Below, piece after piece: positions 4,300 to 9,636 of a DNA stretch of 39,220 bases. Origin of the DNA: Clostridiales bacterium (GTDB lineage Bacteria > Bacillota > Clostridia > Caldicoprobacterales > Xylanivirgaceae). Location of the stretch: positions 1 to 39,220 of the forward strand of contig JAAZLT010000024.1 in NCBI GenBank assembly GCA_012799205.1, read 5' to 3'. The translations under genes and the position numbers were made by a program. Every line of letters begins with the position of its first letter. Within the stretch, counting starts at the first letter, position 1. The notes under the pieces were generated by a model. It was not told where the DNA came from. It saw only the letters and a list, made by a program, of their open reading frames with translations, and did not search any database.

Positions 4300-4977
4300 T
4301 TAATCCTCTTTTACTATTCCGGAAACTCTATTTATATCCATAGAAAATATAATGCCTTTGCCCGGTTTTTCAAGGTCCATTGATGTTTTTATGGCATCTA
4401 TTATTTTCTCTGATTTGTCTTTTTCAATGATTATCATTACTATCTCTTTCTCTGGTTCGATACGCATCGAAAAAAATGTGGTATCGTGATGTATTCCAGA
4501 GCCTCTTGCATTTATTATAGTGGCCCCTCTCGCTCCTGCAGCTGTAGCATTATCTACTACTTCTTGCCCAAGCCCTCTTTCTACTATAGTAAAAATCGAT
4601 TCATACTCCATATCATCTTTCCCTCCTGATATACGCTTAACAGTGGATGGATCAAATTCTTCTTGGCCTACCACTTCATTTAAAGATACGGAAAAGGCTA
4701 TGCCGTGATTTGGCTTTTCCAAGTGGAATTTTTCTGTTATCACTTCATGTATCACACCCTCAAGGCTTTTATGTGCTATTAAAATAACAATTTCTTTTTT
4801 AACTTGGTCAAGGCCTAATAACTCTAGAACATGACTTTTTACCGTACCCCTACCTAAGAACACGGTCCCTCCAATTATACCTATTTTTTCCGCCTCTTTA
4901 AAGATCTTTGTGCCTATTCCAGTGTTTACAACTACCGAAAACATAATATAATCTTCAGCACGCCATTCTAATTCCAC
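4300..4977 (-). CDS. Tandem P-II-like regulatory protein
   Basis: A 225-residue protein that contains two P-II-like domains in one chain. The first covers about residues 10-104 and the second about 125-221. The halves align by eye: GIIGGTVFLGRG (33-44) with GARGATIINARG (148-159), and LEKPNHGIAFSVSLNEVVG with LEKPGKGIIFSMDINRVSG. P-II and P-II-like proteins are normally single-domain trimers that bind adenine nucleotides and control transporters or enzymes (GlnK-AmtB, SbtB-SbtA). The GTG start directly abuts the TAA stop of the DUF1538 gene, with GGGAG 9 nt upstream; an in-frame ATG 11 codons later is the alternative. Tight coupling suggests it senses a metabolite and gates that membrane protein; this is inference. 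Confidence 0.85.
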   Translation of the reverse strand: MELEWRAEDYIMFSVVVNTGIGTKIFKEAEKIGIIGGTVFLGRGTVKSHVLELLGLDQVKKEIVILIAHKSLEGVIHEVITEKFHLEKPNHGIAFSVSLNEVVGQEEFDPSTVKRISGGKDDMEYESIFTIVERGLGQEVVDNATAAGARGATIINARGSGIHHDTTFFSMRIEPEKEIVMIIIEKDKSEKIIDAIKTSMDLEKPGKGIIFSMDINRVSGIVKED

Positions 4978-6456
4978 TTAATTCAACTCCCTTTTTCCCG
5001 ATTTACGCTCATATACAAGTCCTAAGGTTTGAATTGCTATTAATGGTGTTAGTGCCACCATAGCAATTACGCCAAAAGCGTCCAATAATACATTGGCTCC
5101 AGGAACTGCCCTTGCAACGCCTTGAGCAAATGCCAATATAAATGTTGCAGTCATCGGTCCCGAGGCCACCCCACCTGAATCAAATGCAATTCCTACAAAC
5201 AATGTAGGCGCATAATGTGATAGTGTTACTGCTATTATATAGCCTGGCAATAGATAATGCCAGAGCTGAATGGTAGGAATCAATATTCTAAGCATTGCAA
5301 GCATCACTGCAAGTGCCACTCCTATAGATAGCGTATATAATATGACTGGTTTTTTAATATGTCCACTTGTCACATCTTGAATTTGCTCATTCAATACATA
5401 GACCGCAGGCTCTGCAAATATAACCGTAAATCCTAAGAAGAAGCCTATGGTAGCCACCAAAACGTTGTTTCCAGTTGCTGCCACTGCATAGCCTATGGCG
5501 CTCCCTGCTTCCATAAAGCCTGCATTCACCCCTACCAAGAATAGTACGAATCCTATAAATGTATATAGGAGCCCTTTTAAAATTCTAAATACTTCTTTCT
5601 TGGCAAGATTAAAGTACAACCCTTGGAATATAAAAAACATTATAAGAAGTGGCAGTAAAGCCATAGTCACCTCCAAAGTAACCGGAGGTATTTCATATAA
5701 AAAAGAATGAAAAATACTTTTATATTCCATAGCTGCATTAGTTAGGCTATCTGACACTATCTCCGTCCTAAATATAATGCCCATCAAGGGAAGCGCTATC
5801 ATCGGCCCAGCTGATGCCAATCCTAGTAAGCCAAAGCTGTCTTCCTCGGACTTTTTCCCACCTTGGGTAGACGATATGCCTAGGCCTAAGGCCAGTATAA
5901 ATGGTACAGTCATAGAGCCTGTAGTTGCTCCCCCTGCATCAAAGGATATACCTAAAAACCCTTCAGGACTAAATATCCCTAATACTAAAATAAGCATATA
6001 CAATATAGTAAGGAGTCTGTTTAAGGCAACTCCAAATATTATTCTCAACATACCCATCATAACCAATATTCCTACACCAATTGATACTGCAATTATTATG
6101 CTAAGCTGAGATATATCTCCGCCCGTAACTATTCCTACTTGTCTTGCTAATACCTGCAGATCAGGCTCGGCAGCATTTATTAAAAATCCTAGTATAAAAC
6201 CGAATATCACTATTAACCAGACATTTCTCTTCTTGGCAAGGGTAGATCCCATAAGCTGGCCTATAGGCTGCACACCTATCTCGGTTCCAAACAAGAAAAT
6301 TGTGAGCCCAAATATTATAAATAATGCGCCTATTACAAATTTCCATATGAGTTCTGTCCCTATTGGGGCTGCAGTAAAATTTAGTATTAAGACTATTATG
6401 GTAATTGGTAGCACGGCTATAATAACTTCTTTAAATTTCTGTAGTAATACATTCAA
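4978..6456 (-). CDS. Fused double DUF1538 (UmpA/UmpB-like) membrane transporter
   Basis: A 492-residue polytopic membrane protein made of two homologous halves. The internal repeat is visible with an offset of about 253 residues: AEPDLQVLARQV (96-107) with AEPAVYVLNEQI (348-359), and FDAGGATTGSMT (172-183) with FDSGGVASGPMT (425-436). Both halves match DUF1538. From memory, the separate DUF1538 proteins UmpA and UmpB of Halomonas together act as a Na+(Li+,K+)/H+ antiporter, so this may be a single-chain equivalent. The acidic EP and FD.GG motifs would be the ion-binding candidates. The start is TTG at 6456: an in-frame TGA lies two codons upstream and AGGG about 12 nt upstream. It leads a two-gene operon with the tandem P-II-like protein. 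Confidence 0.85.
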   Translation of the reverse strand: MNVLLQKFKEVIIAVLPITIIVLILNFTAAPIGTELIWKFVIGALFIIFGLTIFLFGTEIGVQPIGQLMGSTLAKKRNVWLIVIFGFILGFLINAAEPDLQVLARQVGIVTGGDISQLSIIIAVSIGVGILVMMGMLRIIFGVALNRLLTILYMLILVLGIFSPEGFLGISFDAGGATTGSMTVPFILALGLGISSTQGGKKSEEDSFGLLGLASAGPMIALPLMGIIFRTEIVSDSLTNAAMEYKSIFHSFLYEIPPVTLEVTMALLPLLIMFFIFQGLYFNLAKKEVFRILKGLLYTFIGFVLFLVGVNAGFMEAGSAIGYAVAATGNNVLVATIGFFLGFTVIFAEPAVYVLNEQIQDVTSGHIKKPVILYTLSIGVALAVMLAMLRILIPTIQLWHYLLPGYIIAVTLSHYAPTLFVGIAFDSGGVASGPMTATFILAFAQGVARAVPGANVLLDAFGVIAMVALTPLIAIQTLGLVYERKSGKRELN

Positions 6457-6551
6457 ATAACATCACTGCCCTCTCTCTTTTTATTATACGTTTAGCCATC
6501 CTATATTATATTACAATATAATTGTTTTTGCATGCTTTATTTTGTGTTAAC

Positions 6552-6581
6552 TTGATATTGGCCACCTTAAAGGGATATAAT
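6552..6581 (+). promoter_or_regulatory. Putative sigma-A promoter of the hydantoinase/HDAC-like operon
   Basis: TTGATA, 18-nt spacer, TATAAT, located 78 nt upstream of the TTG start. It lies in the divergent region between the DUF1538 and hydantoinase-like genes. Confidence 0.6.
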
Positions 6582-6659
6582 GTAAAGAGATGACCTGTTT
6601 TATACAGATAGTTAATATAAGACGATAGATATAATATAAAATCATAAGGGGGCAGAAAT

Positions 6660-8333
6660 TTGATTGTTGGATTAGATATGGGAGGTACTCATATCGATGC
6701 TGTTGTTATAGAAAATGGTAAGATCCTGAATATAGTCAAAAGATCGACGGACCAGAAAGACCAATTTAACGCCATATGGGAGACCCTACAAAAACTCTTG
6801 ATCGGATATGATAAATCCAAAATAAAGCGAATTAACCTAAGCACTACAGTTTCTACCAATGCAATCGTAGAGGGCAAAATATCTGCTGTAGGAATGATTA
6901 TACAAAGCGGGCCAGGCCTTCCAAATGATCATTTGGCGTGTGGCGATGAAAATGTGTTTATAGATGGATATATAGATCATAGAGGTAAAGTAGTCAAGGA
7001 TTTAGATAGACAAGAGATAGAGCAAGCTATAAGTTCTTTCGAGAGAAGGGGTATAAAAAACTTAGCAATAATCACTAAATTCTCCACTAGAAATCCAAAT
7101 CATGAAATAGCAATTAGAAACATGGCTAAGTCGCATTTTTCTCATATTACTATGGGACATACTATATCTGGAAAGCTCAATTTTCCCCGTAGAGTATTTA
7201 CCTCCTATTTTAATGCGGCAGTATATAGTACATTCAAACAATTTTCACAAAGTATTGAGAAGTCTTTAAAAAAAGAGGGCGTTGATGCTCCTATATACAT
7301 CTTAAAGGCCGATGGTGGCACCACAAATTTGGATACAGCAACCACAAAACCTGTAGAGACTATTTTATCTGGCCCTGCAGCAAGCTTTATGGGTCTTAAT
7401 GCCATGCTATCCACACAAGAAGATGCTCTATTATTAGATATTGGCGGCACCACTACAGATATCTTCTTTTTGGCTGAAGGAGTTCCTTTGTTTGAACCTC
7501 TAGGAATTGAGATTGCATCTTATAAAACAGTTGTTAGGGCTATATATAGTAAATCCATAGGACTTGGAGGAGATAGTGCTATCAATATTGAAGATGGGCA
7601 AATTAGAATTGGACCAAAACGACATGGCAATCCCTATGCATTGGGAGGCCCCAAGCCCACACCAACTGATGCCATGATTGTACTTGGACTTACAAATATT
7701 GGAGATAAAGGGAAGGCTAGAGATGCAATAAAAAAATTAGCGTTTAAACTAGGGCTATCAGTTGGGATGGCTGCTACAAAAATTATACAACTTATGGGAT
7801 GCATGATTAGGGAAGAAGTGCATAATATACTTCACTATATAAATAATAGACCAGTATATACCATAGAGGCATTGCTACACGGGCCTGAAATTAAACCAGA
7901 ACTCATAGGTATAATCGGTGCACCAGCTAATGCTTTAAAGCCCACTTTAGAGGAAGAATTTGGCCTGCCCTGCCATTTACCTAGCAATTTCCATGTGGCA
8001 AATGCCATAGGCGCCGCTCTGGCAAGGCCTACTACAGAGATTACCATGCAGGCAGATACAGCCCTTGGAAAATTATCTGTGCCCGAATTTGGCATATATG
8101 AGAAAATATCTAAAGACTTTAATCTACGACAGGCCAAGGAAAAATCTCTAGAGCTTTTAACCAAACATATCACCTCTACTGATGCGCTCGATGAAGGTTT
8201 AGAACCTGAGATAATTGAAGGAAGTAGCTTTAATATGGTGAAAGGTTTTTTCACTAGTGGTCAAAATATAAGGGTTAGAGCCCAGATAAAGCCAGGGCTA
8301 ATTTATAAACTTTGGGGTGATTCTAATGATTAA
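6660..8333 (+). CDS. Hydantoinase/oxoprolinase family ATPase (HyuA-like)
   Basis: A 557-residue protein of the ASKHA-fold hydantoinase A/oxoprolinase family. The N-terminal phosphate loop is GLDMGGTHIDAVV (about 4-16) and the second one is LLLDIGGTTTDIFFL (about 257-271, with D260 and D267). Between them, STTVSTNAIVEGK matches the conserved HyuA N-terminal region. Family members hydrolyse cyclic amides such as 5-oxoproline or N-methylhydantoin, or carboxylate ketones, with ATP. No HyuB-like partner is present, and the chain is shorter than the usual 650-700, so the reaction cannot be named. The start is TTG 6660 with AAGGGGGC upstream. Its stop overlaps the start of the HDAC-like gene by 8 nt, which implies translational coupling. 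Confidence 0.88.
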   Translation: MIVGLDMGGTHIDAVVIENGKILNIVKRSTDQKDQFNAIWETLQKLLIGYDKSKIKRINLSTTVSTNAIVEGKISAVGMIIQSGPGLPNDHLACGDENVFIDGYIDHRGKVVKDLDRQEIEQAISSFERRGIKNLAIITKFSTRNPNHEIAIRNMAKSHFSHITMGHTISGKLNFPRRVFTSYFNAAVYSTFKQFSQSIEKSLKKEGVDAPIYILKADGGTTNLDTATTKPVETILSGPAASFMGLNAMLSTQEDALLLDIGGTTTDIFFLAEGVPLFEPLGIEIASYKTVVRAIYSKSIGLGGDSAINIEDGQIRIGPKRHGNPYALGGPKPTPTDAMIVLGLTNIGDKGKARDAIKKLAFKLGLSVGMAATKIIQLMGCMIREEVHNILHYINNRPVYTIEALLHGPEIKPELIGIIGAPANALKPTLEEEFGLPCHLPSNFHVANAIGAALARPTTEITMQADTALGKLSVPEFGIYEKISKDFNLRQAKEKSLELLTKHITSTDALDEGLEPEIIEGSSFNMVKGFFTSGQNIRVRAQIKPGLIYKLWGDSND

Positions 8334-9636
8334 ATCTAAAAATAGATTAGGACTTGTCTTTTTTCCAGCTTTTGATTGGGCAATAGATCCCGCACATCCA
8401 GAAAGGGAAGAAAGGCTTTTATATACACAAGATCAGCTGTTTGAAGAGGGAATCGAAGATATTGAGGGAGTCAGTTTTTTTAATCCTGTTATAGCTACAA
8501 ATAAAGATATTGAGAGGGTTCACTTTTGTGTACCAGATGTAGAGTCTAGGTTAACTAAATCCCATTTTATATCAGCAGGAGGGGCTATCAAAGCTGCCCA
8601 TGCTGTCATGAATAAAGAGGTGGATAAATCCTTTGCACTTATTAGACCCCCCGGCCATCATGCTCAAAGGGTTGTGTTAGGAGATAGAGGCTTTTGCATT
8701 GTAAATATGGAAGCGGTCATGATAGAAAATATAAGAGAAAAATATGGTGATCTTAGAGTCGCTATAATAGACACAGACTGCCACCATGGCGATGGTACAC
8801 AGGATATATATTGGAATGATAAAGATACTCTGTTTATTTCCTTCCATCAAGATGGGAGGACCCTCTACCCTGGCACTGGATCAGTAGAAGAATTTGGTGG
8901 GCCTGGTGGCTATGGATATAATATAAATATCCCTCTACCACCTAATACAGGAGATGAAGGTTTTTTATATGTACTAGATAATGTAGTCATGCCCATATTA
9001 GATGATTATAAGCCGGATATTATAATAAATTCTGCTGGTCAGGATAACCACTACACAGATCCTATAACCAATATGAATTTTTCGGCTCAAGGATATGCTA
9101 AACTAAATCACAAGCTAAATCCGGATATTGCTGTTTTGGAGGGCGGGTATTCTATAGAAGGTGCCCTACCCTATATTAACTTAGGCATAATACTTGCCAT
9201 GGCGGGCCTTGATTATTCACAAGTCCGAGAGCCAGACTATAGCATAGAAAAATCATCTCAATCCAGCAGAATTACAGAATATATACAAAGACTTTCAGAT
9301 TTAGTCTATAATAAATGGCAAAACAAAGAAAAGCTTTGGCATAGAGAGTTTAGCGGAGTGGATGTTGTAGATAGACCAAGGCAGGTATATTATGATACAG
9401 ATGGCATTATGGAATCTCAAAACCAGCGCTTTTATATCTGCAAAGACTGCTCTGGGCCCAGTACCATAGAATCGAAAAGCGATAGAGGAAGTAAGATATT
9501 TGCCATAACCATCCCAAGGGATGGATGCACTAAATGCATAGATATGGGATATAGTCTATACAAGGGTGCATCCTCTATAAAGTATTCAAATATATACCTA
9601 CAAGATAGGCCCAATGATGAATTTCATTCTAAATAG
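8326..9636 (+). CDS. Histone-deacetylase-superfamily amidohydrolase with C-terminal zinc-ribbon-like tail
   Basis: The track begins at GTG 8317, but ATG 8326 has GGGGTG 6 nt upstream and is preferred (436 residues). The arginase/deacetylase fold is clear: RPPGHHAQ (H111/H112), DTDCHHGDG with zinc ligands D151 and H153, third zinc ligand D245 in HYTDPITN, and active-site Y275 in LEGGYS. All catalytic residues seem intact. Bacterial members deacetylate small molecules such as polyamines; no histone substrate is implied. Beyond the catalytic domain, about residues 300-436 are unusual and hold two C-x2-C pairs (C372/C375 and C401/C404), which looks like a zinc ribbon. It overlaps the HyuA-like gene by 8 nt. 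The pair may act in sequence on one amide substrate (inference). Confidence 0.9.
   Translation: MIKSKNRLGLVFFPAFDWAIDPAHPEREERLLYTQDQLFEEGIEDIEGVSFFNPVIATNKDIERVHFCVPDVESRLTKSHFISAGGAIKAAHAVMNKEVDKSFALIRPPGHHAQRVVLGDRGFCIVNMEAVMIENIREKYGDLRVAIIDTDCHHGDGTQDIYWNDKDTLFISFHQDGRTLYPGTGSVEEFGGPGGYGYNINIPLPPNTGDEGFLYVLDNVVMPILDDYKPDIIINSAGQDNHYTDPITNMNFSAQGYAKLNHKLNPDIAVLEGGYSIEGALPYINLGIILAMAGLDYSQVREPDYSIEKSSQSSRITEYIQRLSDLVYNKWQNKEKLWHREFSGVDVVDRPRQVYYDTDGIMESQNQRFYICKDCSGPSTIESKSDRGSKIFAITIPRDGCTKCIDMGYSLYKGASSIKYSNIYLQDRPNDEFHSK

Follow-up and report, generated by a model that had tools for sequence, protein, structure and literature searches.

A fused DUF1538 membrane protein and a tandem P-II-like protein encoded as a conserved gene pair: a candidate P-II-controlled cation/proton antiporter

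In the 39,220-bp stretch analysed here, hereafter called the window (positions 1 to 39,220 of contig JAAZLT010000024.1, assembly GCA_012799205.1, Clostridiales bacterium), a membrane protein of the DUF1538 family is encoded directly ahead of a P-II-like protein, which raises the question of whether the two constitute an ion transporter and its own regulator. The transporter gene (4978..6456, minus strand) starts with TTG and codes for a fused two-domain protein of 492 aa matching PF07556 with 457 bits over two stretches, and the sensor gene (4300..4977, minus strand) starts with GTG and codes for a tandem two-domain protein of 225 aa. As the initial annotation stated, the sensor GTG at 4977 directly abuts the transporter stop codon (4980-4978); a GGGAG sequence resembling a ribosome-binding site (4987..4991, minus strand) is located within the 3′ end of the transporter gene, 9 nt ahead of that GTG. 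The intergenic region 6457..6659 is the presumed promoter of the transporter-sensor operon, and across it, divergent from the unit, a hydantoinase/oxoprolinase-like gene (557 aa) and a histone-deacetylase-like gene (439 aa) overlap by 17 nt at 6660-9636 on the plus strand. The flanking genes were ruled out as members of the system since the flanks vary among the records examined. Neither the window itself nor the sequence ahead of the DUF1538–P-II unit at 31 loci yielded an Rfam element.

Both transporter domains, the N-terminal one at 5773..6405 and the C-terminal one at 5014..5646 (minus strand), exceed the curated PF07556 cut-off (234.6 and 235.2 bits, respectively, versus 22.6 bits). The internal duplication noticed earlier is borne out by the halves being 32.6% identical over 224 aa (E=2e-36; profile-profile E=2e-39) and by the repeated motifs, with the AEP glutamates E97 and E349 lying 252 residues apart and the FD aspartates D173 and D426 lying 253 residues apart. 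Among 112 transporter units, E97, R138 and D173 of the first half are each kept in 104-109, E349 and D426 of the second half in all 112 and R390 in 107; these six and Q106 of the first half make up the polar or charged positions conserved in over 90% of the units. Conserved charged residues at offsets of 252-253 residues thus indicate that neither half has decayed. The predicted model (pLDDT 84, pTM 0.85) is all-helical, placing E97 between helices 79-95 and 98-110 and D173 near the end of helix 165-177, ahead of the break to helix 183-195, positions which would be compatible with ion-binding broken helices. No match was found with Foldseek for the full model in the PDB at E<=0.001, nor for the DUF1538 profile among the sequences of solved structures.

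UmpA and UmpB of Halomonas zhaodongensis form a two-component Na+(Li+,K+)/H+ antiporter for whose activity in E. coli the genes umpA and umpB suffice, and conserved R, D and E residues have been counted between the homologs of the two (PMC5484666). The window protein resembles this pair in its family, its two homologous domains and its conserved charged E, D and R, and has in a single 492-aa chain what UmpA/UmpB have in two (PMC5484666), which agrees with the earlier description of it as a fused form. It is nevertheless distant from them, with its N-half scoring 111 and 98 bits and its C-half 84 and 73 bits with the UmpA/UmpB equivalog profiles NF041627 and NF041628, below the respective cut-offs of 490 and 500 bits. 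It also differs in having a dedicated P-II gene; none is mentioned for UmpA/UmpB in PMC5484666, and no mention of P-II was found either in PMC13255231, which counts DUF1538 as a key Pfam feature in its genome-based model of growth pH.

The sensor is likewise internally duplicated (halves 32% identical over 90 aa, E=2e-8; profile-profile E=2e-22) and comprises a first-type, faster-evolving P-II domain at 4633..4977 and a second-type, slower-evolving one at 4303..4632 (minus strand), the mean column identity being 41% in first domains and 54% in second or single ones. The assignment of the protein to the P-II family by the initial annotation was upheld by the C-half, which reaches 47.8 bits against the PF00543 cut-off of 25 bits (44.9 bits at 4315-4596 in another scan); the N-half has no Pfam match by itself, and among 44 first domains orthologous to it 32 match P-II in Pfam. 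The LEKP..GI blocks are repeated at residues 86-93 and 202-209 as described, and the described GRG repeat holds for the N-domain alone, the C-domain reading ARG. Against solved structures, the sensor profile finds a P-II chain at positions 11-107 (E=2e-6), and the predicted model (pLDDT 80) consists of two ferredoxin-like P-II folds and has Foldseek hits to GlnK/PII (probability 1.00, TM 0.6-0.7 over one domain).

The pair is conserved well beyond the source genome, as the adjacency survey proposed in the initial annotation showed. Within 300 Bacillota genomes, DUF1538 and a P-II of the sensor family are both present in 100, DUF1538 alone in one and the P-II alone in one (Fisher p about 2e-78, the rows not being independent). 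In both exceptions the lone partner is damaged: the P-II of G049 is a fragment, and G056, which has no P-II of the sensor family, retains a DUF1538 remnant broken by six stop codons (C1:2161174-2161630), so that in G056 both partners are lost together. Across the phylum, PF07556 is present in 139 of 399 genomes. DUF1538 lies directly upstream of the sensor relative at 76 of 80 loci in species genomes, two of the four remaining loci (L049 and L076) being at a contig edge. When 80 DUF1538 regions were surveyed in the reverse direction, a same-strand P-II gene directly followed in 78 of the 79 checkable places (L135 ends at a contig end). The only checkable exception, G219, possesses both DUF1538 (L190) and the sensor (contig C77), unlinked, and C77 has the same length as the contig bearing the "orphan" sensor locus L018 and is apparently that contig. 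The reading frames of the pair overlap at 41 of 67 loci and are no more than 6 nt apart at 21 more, which gives 62 of 67. Among the plasmid records that represent Pseudomonadota here, those of the alphaproteobacteria Methylocystis and Chelativorans carry two DUF1538 genes followed by one P-II gene and are annotated so in RefSeq.

Several loci deserve separate mention. Three of them (L146, L166 and L175) contain two complete DUF1538–P-II units in tandem, and at L120 (5491-5663) a c-di-AMP riboswitch is located directly downstream of the P-II genes, before an asparagine-synthase-like ORF. The fused pair was also found in MAGs labelled as Fervidobacterium/Kosmotogaceae of the Thermotogota (L040, L064 and L073), representing either transfer or mislabelled contigs.

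The transporter occurs fused or as two chains, and the P-II partner as a single gene, two genes or a fusion. The fused pair is no rarity, being more common in the phylum as sampled than any other architecture. In the transporter tree, all fused forms fall into one clade (100% SH-aLRT) that holds one split member, suggesting that fusion happened about once and was reversed no more than once. Each of the 72 fused transporters there is accompanied by a double P-II, and the 40 two-chain transporters are found with one P-II in 21 cases, two P-II genes in 7 and a fused pair in 12. In the tree of P-II domains, a branch with a support of 93 separates all 62 first copies from the second copies and single P-IIs, which points to one old duplication of the P-II gene followed by repeated fusion or splitting; the finer branching is unsure, given the shortness of the alignment and the length of some first-copy rows. 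The idea of a matched two-fold duplication is not supported, as the P-II duplication is, judging by these trees, older than and separate from the single transporter fusion, and the P-II partner of a two-chain transporter may be single, tandem or fused. Co-evolution of the two events could be examined over only two independent contrasts, which gives no power.

A second pairing of this kind exists in the same genome. Contig C53 (L004:210-1815) carries a gene for a 409-aa CPA2-type Na+/H+ exchanger with a P-II-like gene directly after it, and a CPA2 homologue adjoins the P-II-like gene of this type at 29 of 30 loci, the source locus included. This pair resembles that of the window in having a P-II-like gene beside a cation/H+ antiporter gene and differs in the antiporter superfamily (PF00999) and in the P-II-like protein, which is single-domain and belongs to another subfamily. 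No further P-II matches were found in the source MAG, so both of its detected P-II-like proteins are paired with antiporter genes. That two unrelated antiporter families have their own P-II-like partner makes a regulatory role of P-II in cation exchange more credible.

As to what the sensor may bind, the second and single P-II domains share the motifs GGTI, GRGxGIHE, IEPEKE and KPGxGIAF, with ARGxGIHE and EPEKE forming a conserved set that stands in place of the canonical P-II signatures. The T-loop uridylylation motif and the C-terminal P-II signature, the two classical PROSITE patterns, were detected in none of 89 domains; the GlnZ control was positive for both. The profile alignment to GlnZ gives I for R38, H for Q39, I for K90 and G for R101 and ends short of R103, these five residues being the ATP-phosphate contacts of canonical GlnB/GlnK. 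The T-loop is shortened by about 5 residues. By alignment, then, the canonical nucleotide and phosphate contacts are not conserved in the sensor, and a ligand pocket is likely. The absence of the canonical ATP/2-oxoglutarate contacts implies that the ligand may be another one or that the domain may be purely structural; "nucleotide-gated", as the antiporter was initially called, is a hypothesis.

Taken as a purely structural component, the P-II-like protein would be an obligate assembly subunit, a cytoplasmic cap sensing no metabolite. Its near-perfect co-inheritance with DUF1538, the translational overlap of the genes, the short loops and the loss of canonical ligand contacts and signatures would all fit; the cleft-type motif set is, however, strongly kept in second and single domains, as is expected of a ligand pocket, and UmpAB needed no genes besides umpA and umpB to be active in E. 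coli (PMC5484666), which makes such a role rather unlikely. The short T-loop also recalls PstA, and the sensor might accordingly sense c-di-AMP and adjust K+/Na+ efflux, as c-di-AMP controls K+/Na+ transport in Bacillota. Against this, the c-di-AMP receptor family of PstA is absent among the Pfam families listed at E<=1 for the P-II proteins, no c-di-AMP riboswitch precedes the unit in the 31 loci scanned, and the unit is also present in Alphaproteobacteria and in Thermotogota-labelled MAGs, where c-di-AMP is not known to be general; we consider c-di-AMP sensing highly improbable.

Another conceivable reading is that the DUF1538 protein transports something else, such as an organic ion, whose uptake or export the P-II controls. 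A single distant DUF1538 pair has been assayed so far, and there is neither a solved structure nor a fold match in the PDB, but the pair assayed exchanges Na+(Li+,K+)/H+ (PMC5484666) and the family informs the growth-pH model (PMC13255231), leaving another substrate quite unlikely.

A P-II-type regulator of the transporter, as initially proposed, is the best reading, based on co-inheritance, gene order and the conservation of both halves, and we put the probability that the two-gene operon encodes a self-regulated monovalent cation/proton antiporter under P-II-type ligand-responsive control at about two in three. The fused DUF1538 protein would be the single-chain counterpart of the UmpA-UmpB heterodimer. 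Its two membrane domains, which are homologous and carry an E/R/D set apiece, would together make up a single unit for Na+(Li+,K+)/H+ exchange. The P-II-like protein, whose synthesis would be coupled to that of the transporter, would bind the transporter's cytoplasmic face and limit or permit exchange according to a small cytosolic ligand in the P-II clefts, in the manner of GlnK-AmtB or SbtB-SbtA, and thus probably switches the exchanger on and off. The conserved second domain would be the likely ligand reader and the faster-evolving first domain more likely a docking or asymmetry module. For this candidate antiporter we infer the transport activity, the physical binding, the sign of control, the ligand and the oligomeric state.

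P-II control of other transporters is established for GlnK-AmtB and SbtB-SbtA (PMC10710835). The window pair is like GlnK-AmtB in that a P-II-family gene adjoins a transporter gene, with control being predicted here, and differs in the transporter family and the tandem P-II; compared to GlnK, the sensor has no uridylylation motif, a shorter T-loop and no conserved canonical ATP contacts. Like SbtB, the dedicated PII-like sensor of the cyanobacterial bicarbonate transporter SbtA, it would serve a Na+-linked secondary transporter; SbtA belongs to another family, and SbtB is a trimer of single-domain chains known to bind adenyl nucleotides. The P-II-controlled transporters known to date function as trimers (PMC10710835), and a DUF1538 trimer is hypothetical, which speaks against the proposed mechanism. 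So do the facts that one distant pair, UmpAB, is the source of what is known of antiport in the family (PMC5484666) and that the P-II could act on another target.

The kind of system is a known one, since both genes have labels in RefSeq and transporters under P-II control have been described. In the literature searched, outside which subscription papers and preprints lay, there was no experiment on the DUF1538–P-II pair, no described partnership and no paper treating DUF1538 together with PII-like proteins, and the literature on tandem P-II domains yielded nothing relevant to a DUF1538-paired sensor; within that literature, and on such weak evidence, the partner family, the tandem P-II and the re-built cleft would be new. 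Tentatively, and with the odds somewhat against it, the pair may represent a new class of P-II-controlled antiporters with reader and docking domains, a ligand other than ATP or 2-oxoglutarate in a re-built cleft and a transporter fold outside the PDB, a class which, if real, parallels the second, independent P-II-like/CPA2 pairing in the same genomes.

P-II proteins are known chiefly for sensing nitrogen and carbon and for acting on transporters of ammonium, nitrate, urea or bicarbonate. If they are also tied almost obligately to a family of cation/proton antiporters, the reach of P-II control would widen to the balance of ions and pH. The absence of canonical nitrogen-sensing features in the DUF1538-paired P-IIs would then be explained, and many genes whose sole labels are at present "DUF1538" and "P-II family nitrogen regulator" would gain a function.
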